DNA of 43,480 nucleotides, from the NCBI GenBank assembly GCA_030692765.1, contig JAUYUB010000012.1, positions 1 through 43,480 of the forward strand, written 5' to 3'. The position numbers and the translations under genes were made by a program. The notes beneath the pieces are model-generated. The model was not told the DNA's origin and ran no database searches. It was given only the letters and a program-made list of their open reading frames with translations. Within the stretch, counting starts at the first letter, position 1, and every line of letters starts with the position of its first letter. Positions 135 to 11,010 of this stretch are shown piece after piece. Source of the DNA: Sulfuricurvum sp. GTDB lineage: Bacteria > Campylobacterota > Campylobacteria > Campylobacterales > Sulfurimonadaceae.

Positions 135-548
135 AGATTTATCTCTTCTTTATTATAAAATCAGATCTTTACAAACCTAGAATGCAACACCTAAATCCTC
201 TAATGCGTACTCTGCGTATCCACTCAATTGCTTGTTATCACAATAATATCACCCACTTTGTTACGATTCGATACATAATTTTAAAACAAAAGTTACATTA
301 ATAATACACCTGCTCCAATAGTAAATCAGACGGGACTGCCTCTTTCTGGGATTTAATTCTTATTTATGACGATAAATCTATATTATAAAGGTTTATTAAA
401 GCGTCGTATTACAGGTGTGATACTAACTATAAGAAAATACTATTATATAAACTTATAATTTTAAGTTTCGATTAATTTTAACACACCTATAATGACACTG
501 TTAACGAATCGTTTACCGAGTCGAACTAAATATAATTCAGGAGAATTA
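135..548. other. AT-rich intergenic gap between 5S rRNA and the FadL-type gene
   Basis: No open reading frame or RNA gene is visible in these 414 nt. It must hold the end of the rRNA transcript and the promoter of the next gene. Two TATAAT hexamers occur (454-459 and 488-493). A 7-bp inverted pair, AGGTGTG at 413-419 and CACACCT at 482-488, is present, but its arms are 62 nt apart and its meaning is unclear. No convincing intrinsic terminator was found after the 5S gene. Confidence 0.5.
488..493 (+). promoter_or_regulatory. Candidate -10 element for the FadL-type gene
   Basis: TATAAT matches the sigma-70 consensus and lies 55 nt before the chosen start codon. There is no clear -35 hexamer, which is common for epsilonproteobacterial promoters. 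A second TATAAT at 454-459 is an alternative. Confidence 0.35.
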
Positions 549-1814
549 ATGAAACGTACTATCAAATTAGCAGTTGCAGCAGCAGTTGCACTTACTTCTA
601 CAGCGGCATTCGCAACAAATGGTGATAATCTTATTGGTTTGGGTGCTAAGTCACGCGCAATGGGTGGAACAGGAATAGCTCACTACAATGGTTCAGAATC
701 AGCTACATCGAATCCGGCTTTGATTACTAAAGGTAAAGGGACGGAGTTTACATTTGGTGGTACATACTTTTCACCTGATGTAAAAGTTGATGCAACTGGA
801 TCTGGAGCACCTGGATCAGCTGTTTCTGCAGATAGTGATGCAAAGCATAATGTTATTCCTTATGTTGCATTAACAAATAATCTTGGCAATGGGTTTGCGC
901 TTGGTATGAGTATGTTTGGTTCAGCTGGTATGGGTACAGACTGGAGAGATGTTCCAGAGAATGCTGCTTTTGGTCAAATGGGTCTTTTCTCAATGAGATC
1001 TAATCTACTATTATTAAAATTCTCTTTGCCAGTAGCATACGGTCAAGACAATTGGTCAGTAGGTGTTGCACCTGTTATGATGTATGGTTCATTGGATATG
1101 TCTTTTAACAATCATTTTGCTGCTGGTAGCCCTGATGTTGGTAACGGTTCTTCTTCTGATTTCGGTTTAGGATATGAAGCAGGTGCAGCATATACAATAC
1201 CTGAAGCTGGATTAACGCTTGCAGCTACCTACCATTCTCCAATCATGATGGAATACAAAGACCAAATTTCAACTACAGCGGCTGCTTTTGGCTATGTAGG
1301 AGCTTCTGTTTTTGGACCATTTTCAGACAAATTAGAGCAACCAGCTGAAATTGGAGTTGGACTCGATTGGACTTCAGGTGATATTTCTTTGACTGCTGAT
1401 TATAAAAGAATCAAATGGGCAGATGCGGAAGGATATGGTGATTTTGGATGGGAAGATCAAAACGTATATGCAGTAGGTGCTGAATATCGTATGGATAAAT
1501 TAGCATTACGTGCTGGTTATAACTATGGGAAGAACCCAATTAAAAACAATACTGATGCGACTCCTGTATTAGGACCAAATAGTAATGGTGACACAATGAA
1601 TGCATTGAACCATGTTATGTTTCCAGGTATAACAGAAAGACATTATACTATTGGTGCTGGATATGATTTCACAAAAAATGTTGAAGTTGATTTTGCTGTA
1701 ACCTATGCAACAAGCCCTGATGTGACAGTTAGTACAGCAACTGTTGGTTTGGGTATTTTAACAGTAACAAATGACCAAATGGCTATCGCTGCAAACCTTA
1801 ACTACAAGTTTTAA
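549..1814 (+). CDS. FadL/TodX/OmpP1-family outer-membrane channel
   Basis: A 421-residue outer-membrane beta-barrel of the FadL family, which moves hydrophobic molecules across the outer membrane. The protein has a Sec signal peptide (residues 1-22, ending AFA). The mature N-terminus is Asn/Gly rich and carries the family pattern G-L-G-A-K-S-R-A-M-G-G-T-G followed by S-N-P-A. The body alternates hydrophobic and polar residues, and the last residue is Phe, the usual barrel-assembly signal. An upstream in-frame ATG at 492 would add 19 residues before the signal peptide. I chose 549 because AGGAGAA lies just before it and the signal peptide then starts cleanly. Next to secreted proteins and soxCDYZ, a role in taking up hydrophobic sulfur species is possible but is inference; classical FadL substrates are fatty acids and aromatics. 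Confidence 0.85.
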   Translation: MKRTIKLAVAAAVALTSTAAFATNGDNLIGLGAKSRAMGGTGIAHYNGSESATSNPALITKGKGTEFTFGGTYFSPDVKVDATGSGAPGSAVSADSDAKHNVIPYVALTNNLGNGFALGMSMFGSAGMGTDWRDVPENAAFGQMGLFSMRSNLLLLKFSLPVAYGQDNWSVGVAPVMMYGSLDMSFNNHFAAGSPDVGNGSSSDFGLGYEAGAAYTIPEAGLTLAATYHSPIMMEYKDQISTTAAAFGYVGASVFGPFSDKLEQPAEIGVGLDWTSGDISLTADYKRIKWADAEGYGDFGWEDQNVYAVGAEYRMDKLALRAGYNYGKNPIKNNTDATPVLGPNSNGDTMNALNHVMFPGITERHYTIGAGYDFTKNVEVDFAVTYATSPDVTVSTATVGLGILTVTNDQMAIAANLNYKF

Positions 1815-1822
1815 TCACTCGA

Positions 1823-1840
1823 GCCTGCTTTTATGCAGGT
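1823..1840 (+). terminator. Possible terminator hairpin after the FadL-type gene
   Basis: GCCTGC and GCAGGT form a 6-bp stem (last pair G-T) around a TTTTAT loop, 9 nt after the stop codon. The following bases are pyrimidine rich but lack a clean T run, so termination strength is uncertain. Confidence 0.4.
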
Positions 1841-2056
1841 AGCCTTCTTCACAATCACTTCACATTTGTTTAGTTTAATTTAATTAGGTAACTTTAGAAT
1901 CTAGTATTCCATAAAGTAACACAGGGTGCTTTACTTGTGCTGCTTTACAAATATTAGTGTCAAATTCATTCCATAAAAGGAAGAATTGAGACTCTTGTGA
2001 TAAAATAGTAACGGACAATATTCGCTTGTGCAAGTGAATAAATGAAAAGGAGAATC

Positions 2057-3067
2057 ATGTTTAATCGATTATTGATTAGTGCTGCGGCACTGTCATTGGC
2101 GGCATCCGCTGCATTTGGGATCCAAGGGGTAAAATTTTACGTTGGTGAAGGCGATAAATCTGAAGCCTATATGGAAATGATCAATGGGAAAATCGAGCCG
2201 ATCGGATTTATTTTATCTGATCCTCATGAGCACATTGACAATGCGTATAAAGAAAAATGGGGAACGCCAACCCAAACTGTCAAAGGTGTAACGGGTCCAC
2301 ATCCTGATTTTGATCCAAGCTTTAAAGTCACATTGGATAACCTTGGATTTTTCTCGGTAACCAATGATAAAGTCGTTGGGCCGTTGTTGATGAAAGAGCC
2401 AGCTCTTGGTGGTTTCTCTCCATTTAATTTTCACATTTACAAAAAAGCGGGTGAAAATAAGACCTATGTAGGTCATGTTATGCCTGAGACAATGCTCGAC
2501 ATCGTTGGGATCAAAGACAAAGACGTGCGTGCAAAATTTGTAGCCTCTTTTGGTGAATTGGATAAATTGACAGAAAAAGAGATCAGTTCAAAAGTAGAAT
2601 ACGTAGACTATAAAGCATTGCCTGCAAAGCCGATGATGACATTTGAAATTCCATTCGAGCGTACTGCTGATTTGGAAGCATTTATCAGTGATTTTCAAGG
2701 TCAATTCGAAGAAAAGTTTGAAGAGAAGAAGTACATCATTGCCGGCTATAAAAACATGAAAGAGTCAATGACGAACAATAATGTCAAATTTGATCGTTTT
2801 GACGCTTACTGGGTTTATTCTCTTTGTCACTTTCGATTTTCTGAGGGAATCTTCAACCGCGGTCGTCCTGATGCAGGTACGTTTGCACCATGTTCAATGT
2901 ACATGTACATCGACAAAGGTTCAAATAAGTTGATGGTAGGTATGCCGCGTCTTGAGAACTGGATTGCTGTTATGGCGATTAAGGATCCAAAAATGGTTGA
3001 GTCTATCTATACGTTGGACAAAGAGATCGTTAATATCATGAAAGAATTGGGAGCAACAGAATTATGA
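2057..3067 (+). CDS. Secreted two-domain protein with Cys-X21-Cys motif (DUF302-like), Sox-flanking family member 1
   Basis: A 336-residue protein of unknown function with a Sec signal peptide (about residues 1-21). The mature part looks like two tandem copies of one domain. The first contains G-F-x-L-S-D-P-H, then G-G-F-S-P-F-N-F-H-I-Y. The second contains S-L-C-H-F, then G-T-F-A-P-C-S-M-Y-M-Y. Only the second copy carries the two cysteines (about C257 and C279). The pattern recalls DUF302 domains, but I cannot confirm the family. It is clearly related to the protein at 9941-10969 and more distantly to that at 8873-9844. The start at 2057 is preferred over the ATG at 2042 because the latter overlaps the ribosome-binding site AAGGAGAA. 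Its stop overlaps the next start by 4 nt, so the two are translationally coupled. A periplasmic role linked to sulfur oxidation is inferred from context. Confidence 0.7.
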   Translation: MFNRLLISAAALSLAASAAFGIQGVKFYVGEGDKSEAYMEMINGKIEPIGFILSDPHEHIDNAYKEKWGTPTQTVKGVTGPHPDFDPSFKVTLDNLGFFSVTNDKVVGPLLMKEPALGGFSPFNFHIYKKAGENKTYVGHVMPETMLDIVGIKDKDVRAKFVASFGELDKLTEKEISSKVEYVDYKALPAKPMMTFEIPFERTADLEAFISDFQGQFEEKFEEKKYIIAGYKNMKESMTNNNVKFDRFDAYWVYSLCHFRFSEGIFNRGRPDAGTFAPCSMYMYIDKGSNKLMVGMPRLENWIAVMAIKDPKMVESIYTLDKEIVNIMKELGATEL

Positions 3068-3894
3068 AAAAAATAGTATCACTTATCGCATTGGCATTTG
3101 CCGTTGCATTTACAGGGTGCTCGACAGCAGCACCAAAGATCGAAGGTGGTGTTGCCGTTGATAAAATGGTTTCTGCATACAGAACAGGAGCTTATGTTGA
3201 TGTTGATGCTGCAAAAGCTAAATTGACAGCAGCAGGTTTTGAAATCGTGGGCACGTATAAGCCGGCTGAAAATGGTACTACCATTTTGTATACTAATGCC
3301 GCTATGAAAGCGGATGCTAATAAGCCGTCACGCGGATTTGCAGCAGTAGGACGTATGTTGGTGGATGATGAGCGCAAACAAGTGCACATTTCAAATCCTA
3401 TTTATTTTGGCAAAGCATACTTGCAAGACGAGTACAATCATGCAACAGCGTCTGCAACGTATACTTCTTTAGAGAAGGCTTTTGGACCATTGAAAGACTC
3501 TGAAGATCAATGGGAATTTGCTAAATTGGCAGATTATCACTTTATGATCGGTATGCCGTATTATAAAGATATGGGTGTTGTGGGTACAGGTACTACGGCT
3601 GATTTGTTAGCTAAAGCAAAAGCGGCTAAAGGGATCATCCTTGCACTAGGGGCTGATCGTTATTTAACATTTATTGAGTTGGACAAACGTACAAACGGAT
3701 TTGTTAAAAAAATCGGAACGGACAAGGCTGAAGTTCTTCCATGGCCGGTATTGATCGAGAATGGTGAAGCAAAAGCATTAAAAGCTGAATACCATATCGC
3801 ACTTAGCTATCCATTGCTTGATCTTGGCGGATTTGCAAACATTATGACGGTTCCTGCCGCAGTTTTGAAAAATCTAGAAAAATCATTTAAATAA
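3064..3894 (+). CDS. Putative lipoprotein of unknown function, coupled to the preceding gene
   Basis: A 276-residue protein with a lipoprotein signal: a charged start, a hydrophobic core and F-T-G-C with the lipidated cysteine at C19. No known catalytic motif is seen. There are alternating Gly/Ala-rich helices and strands, and a G-F-A-A-V-G-R-M-L-V-D-D segment near residue 90. It may be distantly related to its upstream neighbour, but the shared pattern is too weak to claim. The ATG overlaps the stop of the upstream gene (ATGA), so the two products are probably made together and may act together in the periplasm. It has no cysteine besides the lipidated one, unlike the two-Cys family around it. 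Confidence 0.65.
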   Translation: MKKIVSLIALAFAVAFTGCSTAAPKIEGGVAVDKMVSAYRTGAYVDVDAAKAKLTAAGFEIVGTYKPAENGTTILYTNAAMKADANKPSRGFAAVGRMLVDDERKQVHISNPIYFGKAYLQDEYNHATASATYTSLEKAFGPLKDSEDQWEFAKLADYHFMIGMPYYKDMGVVGTGTTADLLAKAKAAKGIILALGADRYLTFIELDKRTNGFVKKIGTDKAEVLPWPVLIENGEAKALKAEYHIALSYPLLDLGGFANIMTVPAAVLKNLEKSFK

Positions 3895-3908
3895 TTCTCA
3901 TACACGAT

Positions 3909-3926
3909 CTTCTCCGTACGGAGAGG
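3909..3926 (+). terminator. Hairpin after the lipoprotein gene, possible terminator
   Basis: CTTCTCC and GGAGAGG form a 7-bp stem (one T-G pair) around GTAC, 14 nt after the stop codon. The downstream sequence is pyrimidine rich (CTTCCCTCCCTGTTTCTT) but has no clean T run. Confidence 0.5.
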
Positions 3927-3976
3927 TCTTCCCTCCCTGTTTCTTACTATTGTTATGGATATATTATGGAGAAAAA

Positions 3977-4336
3977 ATGAAAACAAAGCTACAGCAAGAG
4001 CTTAATGCGTATCTAGATTCAAAGGGACAATTTTCCCCTTACTACCAATCAATGAAACATATTTTGAGTTCAGCGCTCTTTGAAGAACAGCTTCAAGAGA
4101 TTATAAACGGATTGGAAAAAGAAGACAGTAAGAGTGCTAAAAGCTTTAAGTTGTATTTAGACACGGTTATAATTAATATGGAAAGTAAAATTGCCAAATA
4201 CAAGCCGTCTGTCTATTTTGAGAATGAAAAAGTAAAAGAGATCGAAAATCAGGGGTATATTATCCCTTTTTACATCGATGAGGGTCAGGAAGCTTATGTC
4301 CTTCTTGGGATTTACAAGAAAGATGACCGATCATAA
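3977..4336 (+). CDS. Small cytoplasmic protein of unknown function
   Basis: A 119-residue, mostly helical, charged protein with no signal peptide or membrane segment. I do not recognise the family. The C-terminal part (pattern I-P-F-Y-I-D then Y-V-L-L-G-I) looks like a short beta-strand region. An earlier in-frame ATG at 3950 exists, but TATGGAGAAAAA directly before 3977 is a better ribosome-binding site. It stands alone between two non-coding gaps, just upstream of soxC. There is no visible antitoxin or partner gene. Confidence 0.55.
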   Translation: MKTKLQQELNAYLDSKGQFSPYYQSMKHILSSALFEEQLQEIINGLEKEDSKSAKSFKLYLDTVIINMESKIAKYKPSVYFENEKVKEIENQGYIIPFYIDEGQEAYVLLGIYKKDDRS

Positions 4337-4582
4337 CAATATTTAATTGTGCATGGGATAATTATTACGGTTAAGTTTCAAGAATGAGTCAAGTGGTAAC
4401 ATATGTTTTCAAATATAGTGTTCATTGTTTACGAATGACATTTAAATTATTGTAGTATTACAGTTGCGGTTTAATTGGTGATAAAAATATATGCCTTACT
4501 AAGGTTTAACCTAGTATTGTATTGGTCGCTTTATTGAGTGGCATCAAGATGTCGCTCCACTTAATCAGAAAAGGAAGAAAAG

Positions 4583-5872
4583 ATGAGCAATAATGATTCT
4601 TTATCTAATGAAAAAAAATTAGATAGAAGAGATTTTTTTAGAAAAACAGCTGCTTTGTCGGCAACTGCATTAGCTGGAACCAGTATTTTTGCAGATGATG
4701 ATGCAATTATGAAAACTCCAGAATGGGCAACAAAATGGGGTGACCCTGTAACAACCAACTTGTATGGTGTTCCATCAGCGTATGAGCATAATGTTATACG
4801 AAGAAGTACAGAGCTATTGTCTTCAGGTAACTTCAGAGCAAGTATCGCGGTTACCCCAATACATGAGTCCAAGGGTATTATTACCCCTAACGGTCTTTTC
4901 TTTAGCCGTTCTCATGGCGGAACTGCTCATATCAATCCTGAAGAGTATCGTTTGATGATTCATGGATTGGTTGAAAAGCCTATCGTTCTCACTTTGGCGC
5001 AATTAAAGCGTTACCCAAGTGTAACGCGTACTCACTTCATCGAATGTCCAGCTAACGGCGGGCAAGAGTGGAGAGCAACACAGTTTAACTCTGTACAGTT
5101 CGCTAAAGGCTTTATGGCCTCTGCTGAATGGACCGGTGTGTACGTTAAAACTATTTTAGAAGATCTTGGTATCAAACCAGAAGCACAATGGATGCTTGCT
5201 GAGGGTGGAGACAGTTCTAAAATGGGAAGAACCGTCCCTATGGATAAGGTTCTTGATGATGCAATGATCGTTTGGGGACAAAATGGTGAAGCACTACGTC
5301 CAGAACAGGGTTATCCTGTACGATTGCTTCTTCCAGGCTGGGAAGGTAACTTATGTGTTAAGTGGCTTCGACGTTTAGAGTTTGCTTCTGAGCCATGGTA
5401 TTGTAAAGAAGAGACATCTAAATATACGGCTCTCAAGGCAAGCGGAAAAGCGATTCAGCACTTTTACGCCAATGAAGTAAACTCAACCGTAGTTTCTCCA
5501 TCACCAGAGATTCCTTGGACGGATTTACCAGATGGCGCTGTTGTTGAGATCGAAGGTCTTGCATGGTCTGGAATGGGTACGATTACAGGCGTAGATTTCT
5601 CCCTAGACGGTGGAAGAACGTATGTTCAAGCGGAATTAAAAGGTCTAGTGCTTCCTAAATCTTGGACACGTTGGAGCTATATGCACACGTACAAAAAAGG
5701 TGACAAGCTTTTGCTTACATCTCGTGCTATGGATGATGCAGGTTATATTCAGCCAACAATTGATGAAGAAACGTCTGTCATGGGTGTTGAATCTGTATAT
5801 CATAGAAATGCAGTTGAAACATGGGAAGTAACAGAAAATGGAGAGGTGAATCATGTTCAAATTAGATCGTAA
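4583..5872 (+). CDS. soxC: SoxC, molybdenum subunit of sulfane dehydrogenase SoxCD
   Basis: A 429-residue molybdopterin oxidoreductase of the sulfite-oxidase family. With SoxD it oxidises the sulfane sulfur bound to SoxY in the periplasm. It has a Tat signal (D-R-R-D-F-F, R15-R16) for export after folding with cofactor. The Mo-binding cysteine is C155 in H-F-I-E-C-P-A-N-G-G. Other family landmarks are E-W-T-G-V (about 182-186), a G-Y-P-V-R-L-L-L-P-G-W-E-G-N segment (243-256) and a C-terminal dimerisation domain containing V-D-F-S-L-D-G-G-R-T. The length fits the family. The ribosome-binding site AAAAGGAAG precedes the ATG. The 3' end overlaps soxD by 20 nt. No soxXAB genes are present here, consistent with the split sox clusters known in this phylum. 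Confidence 0.95.
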   Translation: MSNNDSLSNEKKLDRRDFFRKTAALSATALAGTSIFADDDAIMKTPEWATKWGDPVTTNLYGVPSAYEHNVIRRSTELLSSGNFRASIAVTPIHESKGIITPNGLFFSRSHGGTAHINPEEYRLMIHGLVEKPIVLTLAQLKRYPSVTRTHFIECPANGGQEWRATQFNSVQFAKGFMASAEWTGVYVKTILEDLGIKPEAQWMLAEGGDSSKMGRTVPMDKVLDDAMIVWGQNGEALRPEQGYPVRLLLPGWEGNLCVKWLRRLEFASEPWYCKEETSKYTALKASGKAIQHFYANEVNSTVVSPSPEIPWTDLPDGAVVEIEGLAWSGMGTITGVDFSLDGGRTYVQAELKGLVLPKSWTRWSYMHTYKKGDKLLLTSRAMDDAGYIQPTIDEETSVMGVESVYHRNAVETWEVTENGEVNHVQIRS

Positions 5873-6992
5873 ATTAATCCTATCTGCTTCGGTATTTACG
5901 GCAGCAGCATTATTTGTAGCGGGCTGTGCTGGATTTTCAAATTCAAATACTACGCATGCACAACCTAGCATTGATGGCGGCGTATACTATCCTGTAGTAA
6001 ACGGTAAAACAGGTCCGTACCTTGTAGATCGCGTAGCTATGCCTATGAAGATCAATAATGGCCGTATCCCAACGGAAAATGAGCTTAAAGCTTGGGACAC
6101 TGATGTTATGGCTGACGGTACAGGTTTGCCTGAGGGTCATGGTAATGCATCTGATGGTTCAGAGATTTATGATGCCAAATGTGGTTCATGTCATGGTGAT
6201 TTTGGTGCTGGCGGAGCTGGATACCCATCATTGGCAAAAGGTAATGCATACAGCATGATGGACACTTTGAAGAGTCAAAGAAGTGTTGATGGCGCAGATG
6301 GTCCAAATCGTGTATTTGGTGTTTATTGGCCACAAGCAAGTACGCTTTGGTGGTACATCAAAGACGCTATGCCTCACCAGGCAACCGGTACGTTGACTGA
6401 GGATGAAGTGTATGCACTTACAGCGTATATTCTTAAATTGAATGAAATCAAGATTGATGGTGTTCTTGTCGATGATGAGTATGAACTTGATCGTGAAAAG
6501 TTTTTGAAGATCGTTATGCCTAACAGAGATGGTTTTGAACCAAATATTGCAGGTCCAAAATCTTTGCCTGGTGTACGTGCTTACTATGCAAAAGCAGAAA
6601 ACTTCGGCGGGAAAAAAGTTAAACCATCTGAGCGTTGTATGAAAGATTGTCAAAAACCGACAGTTAAAAATATTTACGTAACCAATGGCGGTATCAAAGA
6701 TTTCGTTCCTCCAATGGCTACTGCTAAAGACTTGCCAAAAGTAGAGTCAAAAGAGTTTAATGTTGCAAAAGCGTATGAAGAAAACTGTGCCGCTTGTCAT
6801 GCTAACAAAAGCATGGGTGCTCCTGCTATTGGAGATAAAAAAGCATGGGCTGCTGTGAATAAAAAAGGTATGCCTGCTGTTTACAAAAACGGTATGGATG
6901 GTATCAACGGTATGCCTGCAAAAGGTGGAAGTAATCTTTCAGAAGCAGAGTTTAAATTAGTCGTCGATTATATCGTTGGCTTAAGTAAATAA
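5853..6992 (+). CDS. soxD: SoxD, dihaem c-type cytochrome subunit of sulfane dehydrogenase
   Basis: A 379-residue electron-transfer subunit that passes electrons from SoxC to the respiratory chain. Two haem c sites are visible: C110-G-S-C-H114 and C312-A-A-C-H316. Likely axial methionines are M173 (D-A-M-P) and M354 (G-M-P-A-K). The region between them contains a C-M-K-D-C pair (C262, C266). The N-terminus has a hydrophobic stretch ending F-V-A-G-C, with C25 fitting a lipobox, so the protein may be membrane anchored rather than soluble. The ribosome-binding site GGAGAGGTG lies inside the end of soxC. soxY follows after a 16-nt gap, so soxCDYZ should be one transcript. Confidence 0.93.
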   Translation: MFKLDRKLILSASVFTAAALFVAGCAGFSNSNTTHAQPSIDGGVYYPVVNGKTGPYLVDRVAMPMKINNGRIPTENELKAWDTDVMADGTGLPEGHGNASDGSEIYDAKCGSCHGDFGAGGAGYPSLAKGNAYSMMDTLKSQRSVDGADGPNRVFGVYWPQASTLWWYIKDAMPHQATGTLTEDEVYALTAYILKLNEIKIDGVLVDDEYELDREKFLKIVMPNRDGFEPNIAGPKSLPGVRAYYAKAENFGGKKVKPSERCMKDCQKPTVKNIYVTNGGIKDFVPPMATAKDLPKVESKEFNVAKAYEENCAACHANKSMGAPAIGDKKAWAAVNKKGMPAVYKNGMDGINGMPAKGGSNLSEAEFKLVVDYIVGLSK

Positions 6993-7008
6993 AACAAAAG
7001 GAATTACC

Positions 7009-7461
7009 ATGGAAAGAAGAAAATTTTTAGGTTTTGGAATCTTTGCAGCTGCTGCTGCTTTAGTTCCAGGAACTCTTAGTGCAGAAGATTATAGAAAAAC
7101 AAAGCCTGACGTTTGGACGGCTCACACTATGGAAGACGCAATCGCAAAAATGTATGGTGCTAAACCATTGATTGAGCAAGGCGTTACACTTACTGCTCCG
7201 GATGTTGCGGCTAATGGTGGTGCGGTTCCTGTTGATTTCTCATCAGAGATTGCTGCAAAATCTGTAGCAGTATTCCAAAGCTCAAATCCTGAAGCTACGG
7301 TTTGTGCATTTACACTCAATGAATACAGTGTCATTGATTTCTCAATCAAAATGAAACTTAAACAAAGCGGAACTATTATCGTTGTTGTAGAAGGCAAAGA
7401 CGGTAAATTGTATGCAGCGAAAAAGAGTTTGAACGTTGCACTTGGTGGTTGTGAGGGCTGA
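7009..7461 (+). CDS. soxY: SoxY, sulfur-carrier subunit of SoxYZ
   Basis: A 150-residue protein that carries sulfur intermediates covalently on a C-terminal cysteine. A Tat-type signal (E-R-R-K-F-L-G-F) is followed by a hydrophobic segment and a likely cleavage site near L-S-A-E. The C-terminus is G-G-C-E-G with the carrier cysteine at C148. The textbook swinging arm is GGCGG, so the fourth position is Glu here. C102 (T-V-C-A-F) is a second cysteine. AAAGGAATTACC precedes the ATG. SoxY forms a heterodimer with SoxZ, encoded 48 nt downstream. Confidence 0.93.
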   Translation: MERRKFLGFGIFAAAAALVPGTLSAEDYRKTKPDVWTAHTMEDAIAKMYGAKPLIEQGVTLTAPDVAANGGAVPVDFSSEIAAKSVAVFQSSNPEATVCAFTLNEYSVIDFSIKMKLKQSGTIIVVVEGKDGKLYAAKKSLNVALGGCEG

Positions 7462-7509
7462 TTTGCCTTCCACTCGCGTATAAAAAATAATCGTATTAAA
7501 GGAAAAATC

Positions 7510-7803
7510 ATGGAAATCAAAGCAAAATTGAAAGATGGTGTTACAACGGTTAAAGCTATGGCGAAACACCCTATGCTTACGTATGACACAGCTAAAAAAC
7601 AAGGTGTAGAAGCTAATTTTATTACTCACATCACTGCAACTGTAAATGACAAGGTTGTACTTGATATGTCATCAAGTCAGTTTCTATCAAAGAACCCTAT
7701 CTTTAAATTTTCATTTAAAGGTGCTAATGCAGGCGATAAAATCGTTATGACTTGGGTAGATCTACTTGGCGGTACTGAAACTTCGGATGCAGTCATTAAA
7801 TAA
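7510..7803 (+). CDS. soxZ: SoxZ, partner subunit of the SoxYZ carrier
   Basis: A 97-residue immunoglobulin-like protein with the SoxZ patterns K-H-P-M-L-T near residue 20, N-F-I-T-H-I, S-K-N-P-I-F-K-F-S-F and W-V-D-L-L-G-G. It has no signal peptide, as is usual, because it is exported together with the Tat-targeted SoxY. AAAGGAAAAATC precedes the ATG. It is followed by a perfect inverted repeat at 7818-7848. Confidence 0.93.
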   Translation: MEIKAKLKDGVTTVKAMAKHPMLTYDTAKKQGVEANFITHITATVNDKVVLDMSSSQFLSKNPIFKFSFKGANAGDKIVMTWVDLLGGTETSDAVIK

Positions 7804-7817
7804 TTTTATTATTTCCG

Positions 7818-7848
7818 TAAGAGAAAATGGTTCCATCATTTTCTCTTA
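7818..7848 (+). repeat. Perfect 12-bp inverted repeat between soxZ and the thioredoxin-like gene
   Basis: TAAGAGAAAATG (7818-7829) is the exact reverse complement of 7837-7848, with a 7-nt loop GTTCCAT. As RNA it would be a stable hairpin 14 nt after the soxZ stop and 3 nt before the 7852 start codon. There is no T run after the right arm, so it is not a typical terminator in the + direction. An attenuating or mRNA-stabilising element that raises soxYZ expression over downstream genes is a plausible role. Confidence 0.65.
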
Positions 7849-7851
7849 AAA

Positions 7852-8346
7852 ATGGATTCACCTATGCATAAAGCTGTCGCTAGTCTTTTTCTTTTTATTA
7901 TCGCATTCAATATTTCTCTTTTCGCACGCAATATCGATATTGACGCTATTGTAAAAAACTCTGTAAAGAATGATAAGCATTTATTTGTTTTTCTTCATAG
8001 AACGGATTGTGGGTATTGTGAAAGTATGCTGATGTTTACACTCGATGATGAGCCCGTAAAAGAACTTATAACTAAAGACTTCATTTATCTTCACATCAAT
8101 ATAAGCGAAGACGATGTTGTCAAATATAAGAACTTTAAGGGAAGTGGTCGCGATTTCGCAAAGAATGTCGGTTATAACATCTATCCATCTTCACTTTTTT
8201 TAAACACTAAAGGTGAGATAATACATGCTGTTGCCGGCTATCAAGATAAAGATCAGTTCCTTCTTGTTTTGAAATATGTCAATAGCGGTGCATACAAAAC
8301 AATGGGTTTTCAATCTTTTAAAAAAAAGATGGATACTGTAAAATAG
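7852..8346 (+). CDS. Periplasmic thioredoxin-like protein (SoxW-like)
   Basis: A 164-residue thioredoxin-fold protein with a signal peptide or N-terminal anchor (hydrophobic residues 10-24) and the redox motif C53-G-Y-C56. A later Y-P-S-S-L-F segment supplies the cis-proline loop, followed by K-G-E-I. Such proteins in sox clusters (SoxW, SoxS) keep the SoxY cysteine reduced; assignment to SoxW here rests on context. A second start at 7864 (MHKAVAS) is equally possible, as neither start has a strong ribosome-binding site. It lies 48 nt after soxZ, with a perfect hairpin in between, and 33 nt before the MOSC gene. Confidence 0.8.
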   Translation: MDSPMHKAVASLFLFIIAFNISLFARNIDIDAIVKNSVKNDKHLFVFLHRTDCGYCESMLMFTLDDEPVKELITKDFIYLHINISEDDVVKYKNFKGSGRDFAKNVGYNIYPSSLFLNTKGEIIHAVAGYQDKDQFLLVLKYVNSGAYKTMGFQSFKKKMDTVK

Positions 8347-8379
8347 ATCATAGATTATTAGATTAGGGTCAGGTGTTAT

Positions 8380-8811
8380 ATGTCTGTAGAGTCTCGAGTT
8401 TTAGCTCTTTTTATATCGGTAGATAATGACAAAAAAAGAGTCCCTAAAGAAAAGCTTGAACTGGATGAGATGGGTGTCCTGGAAGATAAGTTTTATGCTA
8501 AGAATACCAATCGTTTAATACTGATTACTTCCACAACTGCCTATTCATTGGCGAAAAGCAGTAGTGTTGAGTTGGAGTATGGTAGTCTCGGCGAAAATAT
8601 ATTGATTGATCAGAGCATCAATCATTTATCTGTTGGCGATCGGTTAAAAATAGGTGATGTGGTTTTAGAAATAACTCAAAATTGTACCCTTTGTAACGGT
8701 TTATCGGTCCTCGATCCTAAGCTACCTGAGGTATTAAAAAATGATAGAGGATTATTTGTTAAAGCTGTTACAAGCGGCATCATTAAGAAAGATGATATTA
8801 TAATTATCTGA
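8380..8811 (+). CDS. MOSC-domain protein
   Basis: A 143-residue single-domain protein of the MOSC superfamily (molybdenum cofactor sulfurase C-terminal domain), predicted cytoplasmic. Recognisable patterns are a degenerate G-V-L-E-D-K-F-Y-A-K, then N-R-L-I-L-I, G-S-L-G-E-N-I-L-I (68-76), V-G-D-R-L-K-I-G (85-92) and I-T-Q-N-C-T-L-C with C102 and C105 in the place of the usual MOSC cysteine. MOSC proteins bind molybdenum cofactor or handle sulfur. Its position after soxCDYZ, which includes a molybdoenzyme, fits a role in cofactor handling for SoxC, but this is inferred. Confidence 0.75.
   Translation: MSVESRVLALFISVDNDKKRVPKEKLELDEMGVLEDKFYAKNTNRLILITSTTAYSLAKSSSVELEYGSLGENILIDQSINHLSVGDRLKIGDVVLEITQNCTLCNGLSVLDPKLPEVLKNDRGLFVKAVTSGIIKKDDIIII
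8799..8804 (+). promoter_or_regulatory. Candidate -10 element at the end of the MOSC gene
   Basis: TATAAT lies inside the last codons of the MOSC gene. Transcription from it would start near 8811 and pass through the palindrome at 8832-8851 before the next start codon. There is no clear -35 element. Confidence 0.35.
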
Positions 8812-8831
8812 TTTTGAAAGCTACTTGTCAA

Positions 8832-8851
8832 AATGTGATGAAGGTCACATT
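8832..8851. promoter_or_regulatory. CRP/FNR-type palindromic operator candidate
   Basis: AATGTGATGAAGGTCACATT contains the exact TGTGA-N6-TCACA consensus of the CRP/FNR superfamily, extended to 7-bp perfect half-sites. It ends 21 nt before the start codon of the next secreted-protein gene. It may control that gene, alone or together with a promoter near 8800. As RNA it could also form a 7-bp hairpin before the ribosome-binding site. Confidence 0.6.
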
Positions 8852-8872
8852 CATATTATTAAAAGGGTGAAA

Positions 8873-9844
8873 ATGAAAAACATATTCAAGACTATGCTTA
8901 TCGCTTTGTTTGCAATAGGAACAATGGCTAATGCAGCAGCAAAGACAAAGGTCGTAGAGCTTAACAAAGGTCAAAGTGTCCAAATTTATAGTGCTCCTAA
9001 TACAGATGGTGCTATTACAACCAAAACAATCGATGAGGCTTTTGAAAAAAGTGGTCTCACGGTAGGTGGGGACAACAATATGAACTCCCCTTTTGAAAAA
9101 AGATTTGGGAAAGTTCATTACAAAACATACAATTTGGCAATGTTCTCCAATACGGATTTAACGGTTAAATTGATAAAAAAATACCCAAAATTCGGCTCTT
9201 TGACTCCGTTAACGATGTCAATCTGGTCTGATGATACGAAAAAGACGATGAATGTAGCTACTTTGACTCTCACTGGGATGTCTAAAGCTGTCAATATTCC
9301 AGAGAGTGATCCAGATTTGATTGCGTATGCTGCTATGGTAAAAACGGCACTTAAAGCAGCGTTGCCAAAGGGTGACTTTCAAAAAACAAACTTTCCAATC
9401 GTAGATAAAAAAGCATCGTACAAGCAAGAGTTTACGATTGATATGACAGAAACAGATCCTGATAAGATTCAAGAGATCAAGGGAAATATCGAGGCTGCAT
9501 TTGAAGGTGAAATGGAGCCATTGGGCTTTTTGCTTCCAAACTACATGAATTTACAAGCGGATGTTTTTGCTCCTCTAGGATTTAATGAATACGACATATA
9601 TGTAACGTATTCTATTTGTAAATTTGATGTTATTTATCCTGTGTCAAAAGATTCCCCTGCTGCGGGTGCATGGGCTCCGTGTTCTATGTATATTTATCAT
9701 AGAAAAGGTGAAGATAAGATCCATATCGGATACTTGGGCGTTGACAGCTGGATCACAAGTTTGGGTATGAAAGACAAAGAAGGAATGGATAAGCTTTATG
9801 AAGCTCAAGGTATGATTACCAAAATTCTAGAAGGTTTGAATTAA
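8873..9844 (+). CDS. Secreted two-domain protein with Cys-X20-Cys motif, Sox-flanking family member 2
   Basis: A 323-residue protein of unknown function with a Sec signal peptide (about 1-22, ending ANA). It shares with the proteins at 2057 and 9941 the C-terminal block Y-S-I-C-K-F (C249), then A-P-C-S-M-Y-I-Y (C270), K-I-H-I-G and a W-containing helix. Its N-terminal half has a matching but cysteine-free block (L-T-P-L-T-M-S-I-W), supporting an internal duplication. It is the most divergent of the three and lacks the G-F-x-L-S-D-P-H segment. AAAAGGGTG precedes the ATG at 8873, which is favoured over a TTG at 8825. A CRP-type palindrome lies just upstream, so it may be regulated separately from the sox genes. 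Confidence 0.7.
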   Translation: MKNIFKTMLIALFAIGTMANAAAKTKVVELNKGQSVQIYSAPNTDGAITTKTIDEAFEKSGLTVGGDNNMNSPFEKRFGKVHYKTYNLAMFSNTDLTVKLIKKYPKFGSLTPLTMSIWSDDTKKTMNVATLTLTGMSKAVNIPESDPDLIAYAAMVKTALKAALPKGDFQKTNFPIVDKKASYKQEFTIDMTETDPDKIQEIKGNIEAAFEGEMEPLGFLLPNYMNLQADVFAPLGFNEYDIYVTYSICKFDVIYPVSKDSPAAGAWAPCSMYIYHRKGEDKIHIGYLGVDSWITSLGMKDKEGMDKLYEAQGMITKILEGLN

Positions 9845-9860
9845 TTTATAGTATAAACCT

Positions 9861-9882
9861 ACTTGCCCCATCGTGGGTAAGT
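9861..9882 (+). terminator. Hairpin after family member 2, possible terminator
   Basis: ACTTGCCC and GGGTAAGT form an 8-bp stem with one G-T pair around CATCGT, 16 nt after the stop codon. Only two T residues follow directly (TTAAAC), so termination may be partial. Confidence 0.45.
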
Positions 9883-9940
9883 TTAAACAGTAAAGCAAAT
9901 AATGTGATTTGTTTTATCTTTAAACTTTAGAGGAAGATAC

Positions 9941-10969
9941 ATGAAATTATTGAGCCAGATTGTTCCAACACTATTACTTAGCGCTACTCTTATAACATCA
10001 CTTGCTGCAATGGATGAGTATGTTCCAAGCAGTAATAAAAATCTTGCGGTTGAATATACTTTGGAAAATAAAGACATTGTATTTGACAAAGCCTTTTTTG
10101 ATTTTACGGTAAAGCCTTTGGAAAAAATTGGATTTTATCTAAGTGATCCGCATCATAACGTCAATCTCGTATATGAAGAGCTTAAGGGGGAGACTGCTTT
10201 AAGTCAATTGTCATTTTCTTCTCTTGTTAGTGACGATAAAGCAAGACCGCTTTTTAACAAAGATCCTAGAATAGGCGGTTTTACACCCTTTAATTTGGTT
10301 ATTTATCGAAAAAAATCAGATATGAAAACAGTTATAACCCATATCACTCCTGAAGCAGCACTGGATATCCTTCATATCACCGATAAAGATGTGCGAGAGC
10401 AATACATCGCTATGTATAAGCCGCTGGATGAATTGATAGAAAAACAGTATGGTGCCGAGGCTAAAAAAAGCTATACTAAAATTCAAGGCTATGCTAAAAA
10501 GAATATGATGAACTTTGAGATACCTTTTGAGCAACCGGAAGATATCGATGATTTTTTTGAGAAATTTCAAGAAAAGTTTGAAACAACATTTCAAACAAAG
10601 GGATACATCATTGCCGGTTTTTATAACATGAAATCCAGCTTAAATTCAAACAAAGATGTGCTTCCTGTTTATTCTAATTTTGTCGTTTGGTCTCTTTGCC
10701 ATATCCCGTTTTCCTATACCATTTTTGATGGTAAAGATCCCTTGCCGCAAGCTGCAGTTTTTGCCCCATGCTCTATGTATGCGTATATAAAAGAAGGTGA
10801 GAACAAGATCGTAATCGGTATGCCAACCCTAAGCGCATGGGCAGCGGCATTGGGCATTACCGATAAAGAGAAGCTTCAAAAGATTGAGGAGCTTGATACG
10901 GAGATTCCGTCTATCATACACAGTTTGGGCGGCGTTGACGTATCAAACGCGAACCCTTTAGTAAAGTAA
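9941..10969 (+). CDS. Secreted two-domain protein with Cys-X23-Cys motif (DUF302-like), Sox-flanking family member 3
   Basis: A 342-residue exported protein, a clear paralogue of the protein at 2057-3067. Shared blocks include G-F-Y-L-S-D-P-H (about residues 63-70), G-G-F-T-P-F-N-L-V-I-Y, I-T-D-K-D-V-R, M-M-N-F-E-I-P-F-E, Y-I-I-A-G-F-x-N-M-K, S-L-C-H-I (C253) and F-A-P-C-S-M-Y-A-Y (C277), with a similar tail. The signal peptide is about residues 1-22. AGAGGAAG stands before the ATG. It ends with a strong terminator at 10986-11010. The function is unknown; a periplasmic sulfur-related role is inferred from position and from the two conserved cysteines. Confidence 0.72.
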   Translation: MKLLSQIVPTLLLSATLITSLAAMDEYVPSSNKNLAVEYTLENKDIVFDKAFFDFTVKPLEKIGFYLSDPHHNVNLVYEELKGETALSQLSFSSLVSDDKARPLFNKDPRIGGFTPFNLVIYRKKSDMKTVITHITPEAALDILHITDKDVREQYIAMYKPLDELIEKQYGAEAKKSYTKIQGYAKKNMMNFEIPFEQPEDIDDFFEKFQEKFETTFQTKGYIIAGFYNMKSSLNSNKDVLPVYSNFVVWSLCHIPFSYTIFDGKDPLPQAAVFAPCSMYAYIKEGENKIVIGMPTLSAWAAALGITDKEKLQKIEELDTEIPSIIHSLGGVDVSNANPLVK

Positions 10970-10985
10970 TCTTTCACAAATATTC

Positions 10986-11010
10986 GGGATAGTTTCTATC
11001 CCTACTTTTT
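10986..11010 (+). terminator. Intrinsic terminator of the sulfur region
   Basis: GGGATAG-TTT-CTATCCC is a perfect 7-bp stem (10986-10992 with 10996-11002), followed by TACTTTTT. It lies 16 nt after the stop codon at 10969 and touches the stop codon of the convergent gene. This is the best terminator in the first 11 kb. Confidence 0.75.

Follow-up and report, generated by a model that had tools for sequence, protein, structure and literature searches.

Around the soxCDYZ cluster of Sulfuricurvum sp. (GenBank assembly GCA_030692765.1, contig JAUYUB010000012.1, positions 1 to 43,480, hereafter the window) lie three genes for exported proteins built of two DUF302 domains in tandem, with one pair of cysteines. 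We found that, across species, tandem DUF302 genes accompany sox genes more often than chance would allow, and that the cysteines are invariant in every sox-linked copy. The proteins are very probably periplasmic accessory factors functionally tied to the Sox system. The best explanation, to which we give a probability of about 0.5, is a sulfane-sulfur relay in which they would bind sulfur and contact SoxYZ directly, loading or unloading it.

Three tandem DUF302 proteins flank soxCDYZ

The first-pass annotation of the window reported three exported homologues with a common block and Cys-X20-23-Cys spacing. Our reading frames, alignment and motif count agree with that description. The three genes are as follows.

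2057 to 3067, + strand: tandem DUF302 subtype A1 (DUF302A1), exported, Cys257 and Cys279 in the C-terminal domain (PF03625, 23.1 bits; alignments; tree)
8873 to 9844, + strand: tandem DUF302 subtype B (DUF302B), exported, Cys249 and Cys270, the standard 3' gene of soxCDYZ clusters (PF03625, 32.9 bits)
9941 to 10969, + strand: tandem DUF302 subtype A2 (DUF302A2), exported, Cys253 and Cys277 (PF03625, 26.6 bits)

All three pass the Pfam gathering cut-off of 23 bits for DUF302. The annotation had left the family without a name; it is DUF302 (PF03625), already noted in the sox clusters of Acidithiobacillia and Sulfitobacter. The N-termini of all three proteins resemble signal peptides, and the DUF302A1 gene has an alternative start at an in-frame ATG at 2042. 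The common block reads S-[LI]-C-[HK]-[FI] ... A-P-C-S-M-Y-x-Y, with 21, 20 and 23 residues between the cysteines of A1, B and A2. A DNA motif for the APCSMY block occurs exactly three times in the 2.15-Mb genome, each time in one of these genes, and the reversed control gave 0 matches. The cysteine pair is confined to the C-terminal DUF302 domain, and the N-terminal half has no cysteine in any of the three. Across 78 aligned relatives, invariance is limited to columns P112, C249, A268, P269 and C270.

DUF302B (8873-9841) was modelled with AlphaFold2 from 78 relatives (predicted local distance difference test, pLDDT, 90.6), and the other two proteins were placed by alignment. The model consists of two similar alpha/beta halves, both predicted to adopt the DUF302 fold, in line with the two-domain architecture described in the first-pass annotation. 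The top Foldseek matches were DUF302 structures only (7TJ1, 1Q9U, 1J3M; E about 1e-5). In VIA-align, the C-terminal half reached Z 10.0-10.6 to DUF302 structures (1Q9U, 10.6), against 6.3 for the next unrelated fold. A phmmer search of the Protein Data Bank with DUF302A2 gave no real match, and a profile search did match. The model places the cysteines at the end of strand 240-249 and at the start of strand 270-277. The same pair is carried by 1Q9U (VCNP...FLPC) and is present in part of the DUF302 family.

The solved structures 1J3M (TT1751), 1Q9U (APC35924) and 7TJ1 (Bab1_1389) have the same fold as each half of the Sulfuricurvum proteins. However, they are single-domain, whereas the Sulfuricurvum proteins are tandem and exported, with a cysteine-free N-terminal half. 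We infer that the tandem protein is a covalently fused pseudo-dimer of DUF302 domains with one cysteine site. The sulfane-sulfur carriers DsrE, TusA and rhodanese share genomic company and the proposed chemistry with these proteins, but Pfam and NCBIfam scans matched the DUF302 proteins to none of these families.

Tandem DUF302 genes are linked to sox genes across Campylobacterota

We surveyed 298 Campylobacterota genomes with a completeness of at least 90%. Tandem DUF302 proteins were found in 44 genomes, SoxZ in 69 and both in 38. SoxZ is present in 38/44 genomes with tandem DUF302 and in 31/254 of the others (Fisher p 8e-23, kinship ignored), the opposite of a family that lives mostly in genomes without sox. 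At 49 of the 85 places where a tandem DUF302 gene occurs, it lies within 10 kb of soxZ, on the same strand in all 49.

A second, independent scan of a named collection, in which the APC motif was required, gave 286 relatives, and the best 80 were examined. Among these 80, all belong to Campylobacterota as far as they are named, and core sox genes are present at 69 loci. Most of the remaining 11 loci are short or lie at contig ends, and several of them encode MOSC, DsrE, OprD or SoxH.

Gene order resolved three subtypes, A, B and C; the names follow the best phmmer match and are loose near the border of B and C. Subtype B forms the 3' end of soxCDYZ-(soxH)-soxW-MOSC clusters, directly after the MOSC gene in 62 cases. 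Subtype C forms the 3' end of soxXYZAB-OprD-soxH-DsrE clusters. Subtype A occurs either in the arrangement FadL-A-LPP276, where LPP276 is a probable lipoprotein, or after B; A2 follows DUF302B in 28 cases. The co-occurrence with soxCDYZ expected by the first-pass annotation was found and reaches further, to soxXYZAB clusters that end in the same family beside DsrE. In the genome under study, a fifth tandem copy (G000:C1:149686-150483) is located in the second sox cluster; it carries C230 and C251, and APCSLM replaces APCSMY. DsrE and rhodanese, both encoded by sulfur-transfer genes, are recurrent neighbours of DUF302.

Two genomes, G139 and G250, contain the cluster SoxY-SoxZ-Rieske-x-DUF302C. 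It is preceded by a flavocytochrome c sulfide dehydrogenase (FCSD) flavoprotein in G139 and lies on a short contig in G250. No SoxB or SoxC match was found anywhere in either genome. Since DUF302 follows SoxYZ even there, SoxYZ is its smallest common partner. We also considered a role tied to SoxC or its molybdenum cofactor by way of MOSC. It was rejected, as subtype C and the DUF302 gene of locus L090 are found where soxC is missing from the neighbourhood or from the genome altogether.

Several loci show unusual forms of these modules. In a one-contig genome (G221), a 3,883-bp unit is present three times in tandem downstream of OprD (locus L064, G221:C1:1763000-1775000). Each unit contains DsrE, DUF302, a portion of soxH and two genes weakly similar to thioredoxins, and the repeats are exact where checked. 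A close relative, G264, has a single copy. Unless the repeats are an assembly artefact, they suggest that the DsrE-DUF302 module was recently amplified in dosage. Fused DUF302 proteins of 617-1040 amino acids, with two or three tandem units, are encoded at L056 (G264:C1:583701-585575), L051 and L053-L055; in L056, two units have an identical cysteine motif and the last unit has none. At L224 and L225 (G053, G057), a lone SoxYZ stands beside proteins resembling the FCSD-like flavoprotein and the Rieske-like protein of L090. These loci have no other sox genes and no DUF302, and represent a reduced SoxYZ module.

Tandem DUF302 follows the split sox layout

Genomes were classed by the distance from SoxC to SoxB. 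Tandem DUF302 is present in 19/20 genomes with split clusters, 13/13 with soxB only, 3/9 with soxCD only and 1/22 with a fused soxCDXYZAB cluster. Pooled, the non-fused layouts give 35/42 compared to 1/22 for the fused layout. G218, the one split genome without it, carries a cluster that looks fused and is interrupted by the end of a contig (L232). When the membrane-anchored single-domain form is added, a cysteine-bearing DUF302 protein is present in 41/42 non-fused and 5/22 fused genomes. Families of mixed layout point in the same direction, non-fused against fused (f4, 6/6 vs 0/5; f7, 1/2 vs 1/14; f10, 1/1 vs 0/3). Stratified by family, the link has a Cochran-Mantel-Haenszel p of about 7e-5, a stratification that falls short of a full phylogenetic test.

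The cysteine pair is lost only away from sox

The cysteine pair is present in 60 of the 66 tandem proteins found by profile. It is also present in 122/122 proteins of the second set, where the required APC motif makes the count uninformative on the second cysteine. The six proteins without it (L069, L070, L071, L076, L079 and L095) are all encoded away from sox, and the tree places them as two independent losses. Variable cysteines, which the first-pass annotation took as a sign against a sulfur-binding role, were therefore not seen wherever the gene is linked to sox.

FadL and the lipoprotein LPP276

The first-pass annotation placed a FadL channel upstream, and the PF03349 gene at 492-1814 bears this out. 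It is the sole PF03349 gene in the whole genome. In the sister genomes G133 and G217, the sole FadL again adjoins DUF302A, and in G186 it adjoins a single-domain DUF302.

In 24 of 30 cases, LPP276 is the gene immediately after DUF302A1; in the window (3064-3894), its start overlaps the end of the DUF302A1 gene by 4 bases. The AlphaFold2 model of LPP276 has a pLDDT of 80.6. Its residues 35-143 align to 1J3M, 1Q9U and 7TJ1 with Z 10.1, 9.9 and 9.4, and the next unrelated fold gives 7.6. The Pfam scan gave no PF03625 match, and hhalign aligned only the N-terminus (probability 74%). Because the predicted fold matches DUF302 but no Pfam score is above the cut-off, we call LPP276 DUF302-like and not a member of the family. 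On its predicted structure, it is the fourth DUF302-fold protein around soxCDYZ. The three bracketing proteins described in the first-pass annotation thus stand, but their number does not: LPP276 makes four, and the fifth tandem copy lies elsewhere.

In family f4, the neighbours of subtype A are an RND (resistance-nodulation-division) pump and housekeeping genes, which gave no support to a sulfur-specific reading there.

DUF302 proteins beyond the tandem family

Lipoprotein or membrane-anchored single-domain DUF302 proteins with the same cysteine pair were found in 29 genomes, and SoxZ is present in 29/29. This type lies within 10 kb of soxZ at 5 of 37 places. It occupies the slot of subtype B in L215, lies near soxC in L203 and stands beside FadL in L204-L206. 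Single-domain proteins from 15 genomes without SoxZ, a sample that followed match rank and was not random, have the pair in no case and carry FGNPK...LPL or a single cysteine at its place. Many Campylobacterota DUF302 proteins thus have no cysteine pair. Two further single-domain DUF302 genes of the genome under study (L004 and L005) adjoin sulfur-transfer genes: one has the order rhodanese-DUF302-DsrE, and the other encodes a lipoprotein and precedes a two-domain rhodanese.

In another phylum, the plasmid pOB3b1 of the alphaproteobacterium Methylosinus trichosporium has the order soxZ-soxB-DsrE-DsrE-DUF302. Its DUF302 protein aligns with the Campylobacterota lipoprotein type, both cysteines included.

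The DUF302 family and its presence in sox clusters are already known. In Acidithiobacillia, a DUF302 gene between soxA and soxB led the authors to speculate on trithionate oxidation (PMC5037610). This gene, like those of Sulfuricurvum, is inside a sox cluster, but it encodes a single 191-amino-acid protein in a cluster without soxCD, and no link to FadL is described. Likewise, orf3 (DUF302) lies in the sox cluster of Sulfitobacter, between soxF and soxH/soxG (PMC11034169); it is not stated to be tandem, and its position and neighbours differ. Neither paper gives a function for DUF302 in sox clusters. We found no description, in the literature searched, of the tandem form, its position at both split clusters, its dependence on layout or the FadL-DUF302-lipoprotein module.

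Proposed role and alternative explanations

In the proposed mechanism, the C-terminal cysteine pair would bind sulfane sulfur, as a persulfide or polysulfide chain, and pass it to and from SoxYZ, the carrier. Of the subtypes, B would assist SoxCD-SoxYZ, and C would do so for SoxAX/SoxB-SoxYZ, alongside DsrE proteins of the periplasm. The intake of hydrophobic zero-valent sulfur (S8 or polysulfanes) at the outer membrane would fall to subtype A, together with the cysteine-free LPP276 and FadL. The place of the genes, export, the conserved thiols and the company of DsrE, rhodanese and FadL/OprD fit what is expected of a sulfane-sulfur relay to SoxYZ. That the cysteine pair carries a persulfide is an even proposition.

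FadL channels pass hydrophobic compounds, and FadL may tentatively be seen as a port for S8. According to sources that include a 2023 Sulfurovum study, S0 and sulfide are the substrates on which SoxCDYZ is expressed. This study placed the sulfur chain on SoxY2, and stated that the activation of S8, its passage across the outer membrane and its route to SoxY2 are unknown. It is a more speculative thought, and an unlikely one in full, that FadL, tandem DUF302 and LPP276 form a route for elemental sulfur uptake that loads SoxYZ without SoxAX, making tandem DUF302 a new class of carrier that couples separate Sox modules. At vents, redoxclines and seeps, a large share of sulfur oxidation is due to Sulfurimonas, Sulfurovum and Sulfuricurvum. 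For these genera, a conserved cysteine-bearing family that tracks split Sox and the sole FadL provides named, testable candidates for S8 activation, outer-membrane crossing and delivery to SoxY2, and puts a first function for DUF302 on offer.

Several observations weigh against the relay. Most genomes with fused clusters have no tandem copy, so Sox chemistry itself does not require these proteins, and their tie to split clusters may come from joint inheritance with that type of cluster rather than from need. G289, which has no SoxZ, SoxB or SoxC, keeps FadL-DUF302A-LPP276. The FadL-DUF302-lipoprotein module is therefore not solely a SoxYZ feeder. The interpretation in the first-pass annotation is plausible and partly supported, by the comparative link to sox and SoxYZ. 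L083 is away from sox and retains the cysteine pair. The short DUF302 proteins of L200 and L219 keep the full pair beside copper or heavy-metal genes. Finally, the literature searched reports no persulfide on any DUF302 protein, and it yielded no mutant or biochemical results on a part of these proteins in sulfur oxidation.

The strongest alternative, though clearly less probable, is a thiol-redox helper, in which the pair forms a disulfide and reduces or repairs the thiols of SoxY or SoxZ and no sulfane sulfur is carried. The SoxS/SoxW thioredoxins of Sox clusters are periplasmic, cysteine-based and presumed to act on SoxY. The presence of exactly two invariant cysteines, the common partner SoxYZ and the thioredoxin-like SoxW gene, two genes upstream of DUF302B in the window and present in many clusters, are consistent with such a role. 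However, DUF302 proteins have neither the CxxC motif nor the thioredoxin fold of SoxS/SoxW, and a dedicated SoxW-like thioredoxin is already encoded at the locus in addition to them. The FadL module and the DsrE and rhodanese neighbours are also less well explained.

The pair could instead bind Cu(I), As(III) or a similar thiophilic ion, and thereby protect Sox enzymes or deliver metal. Short single-domain DUF302 proteins (126-127 amino acids) with CNP...LPC in three genomes (L200, L213 and L219) adjoin heavy-metal RND/TolC, P-type ATPase or multicopper oxidase genes, L213 with only one of the two cysteines; these three are possibly a separate metal-linked DUF302 branch. A cyanobacterial DUF302 protein resembles a gene of the Synechocystis sqr/arsenite locus, and subtype A is near RND genes in some genomes. 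Against this, the exported DUF302 forms track the sox layout closely, and in L090 DUF302 stands beside SoxYZ although no SoxC, SoxB or metal gene is near. We consider soft-metal handling improbable.

Slightly less probable again is non-covalent binding or scaffolding, where hydrophobic sulfur is solubilised or Sox parts are held together and the cysteines form a structural disulfide. The existence of tandem and longer fused DUF302 forms suits a scaffold, and the cysteine-free relatives that persist (LPP276 and the six off-sox paralogues) indicate that the fold is useful without cysteines. However, every sox-linked copy has the pair, its losses being confined to genes that have left sox, and none of 78 aligned sequences departs from the P and C of A-P-C.

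That the genes are passengers, inherited with split sox clusters and acting elsewhere, is very unlikely: linkage alone is no proof of function and 36 of the 85 tandem places have no soxZ within 10 kb on their contig, but three subtypes have settled at two different sox clusters, a single-domain relative substitutes for subtype B in one genome (L215), and the DsrE-DUF302 order recurs in the alphaproteobacterial sox cluster of Methylosinus.

The gene run around soxCDYZ

The studied gene run (492-10969) holds 12 + strand genes in the order fadL, DUF302A1, LPP276, ORF128, soxC, soxD, soxY, soxZ, soxW-like, MOSC, DUF302B and DUF302A2. Besides the three tandem DUF302 genes, its features are as follows.

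492 to 1814, + strand: FadL/TodX-family outer-membrane channel (PF03349, E 6.7e-30)
3064 to 3894, + strand: LPP276, probable lipoprotein that lacks the cysteine pair and has a divergent fold of DUF302 type (predicted structure)
3977 to 4336, + strand: ORF128, small conserved protein upstream of soxC (homologues upstream of soxC in many loci)
4583 to 5872, + strand: soxC, sulfane dehydrogenase molybdopterin subunit (TIGR04555, 564.6 bits, cut-off 420)
5853 to 6992, + strand: soxD, c-type cytochrome subunit (cytochrome c Pfam domains; position next to soxC)
7009 to 7461, + strand: soxY (SoxY2), carrier with C-terminus ...GGCEG (PF13501, E 2.9e-24)
7510 to 7803, + strand: soxZ (SoxZ2) (PF08770 match at 7519-7788)
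7852 to 8346, + strand: SoxW-like exported thioredoxin-fold protein (PF13098, E 7.9e-11)
8380 to 8811, + strand: MOSC-domain protein (PF03473, E 5.2e-9)
10986 to 11002, + strand: terminator-like hairpin at the end of the unit, with the same character on the opposite strand (7-pair stem, T-rich tail)

The intergenic gaps in the run are small, except for 242 bases after fadL and 246 bases before soxC. Because of the first of these gaps, fadL may have a separate transcript. A promoter for DUF302A1 was rejected, as promoter-like sites are no commoner there than in shuffled sequences. The gene after the hairpin is on the opposite strand. ORF128 has no Pfam match above the cut-off, and it is kept just 5' of soxC in many Sulfurimonas and Sulfuricurvum loci.

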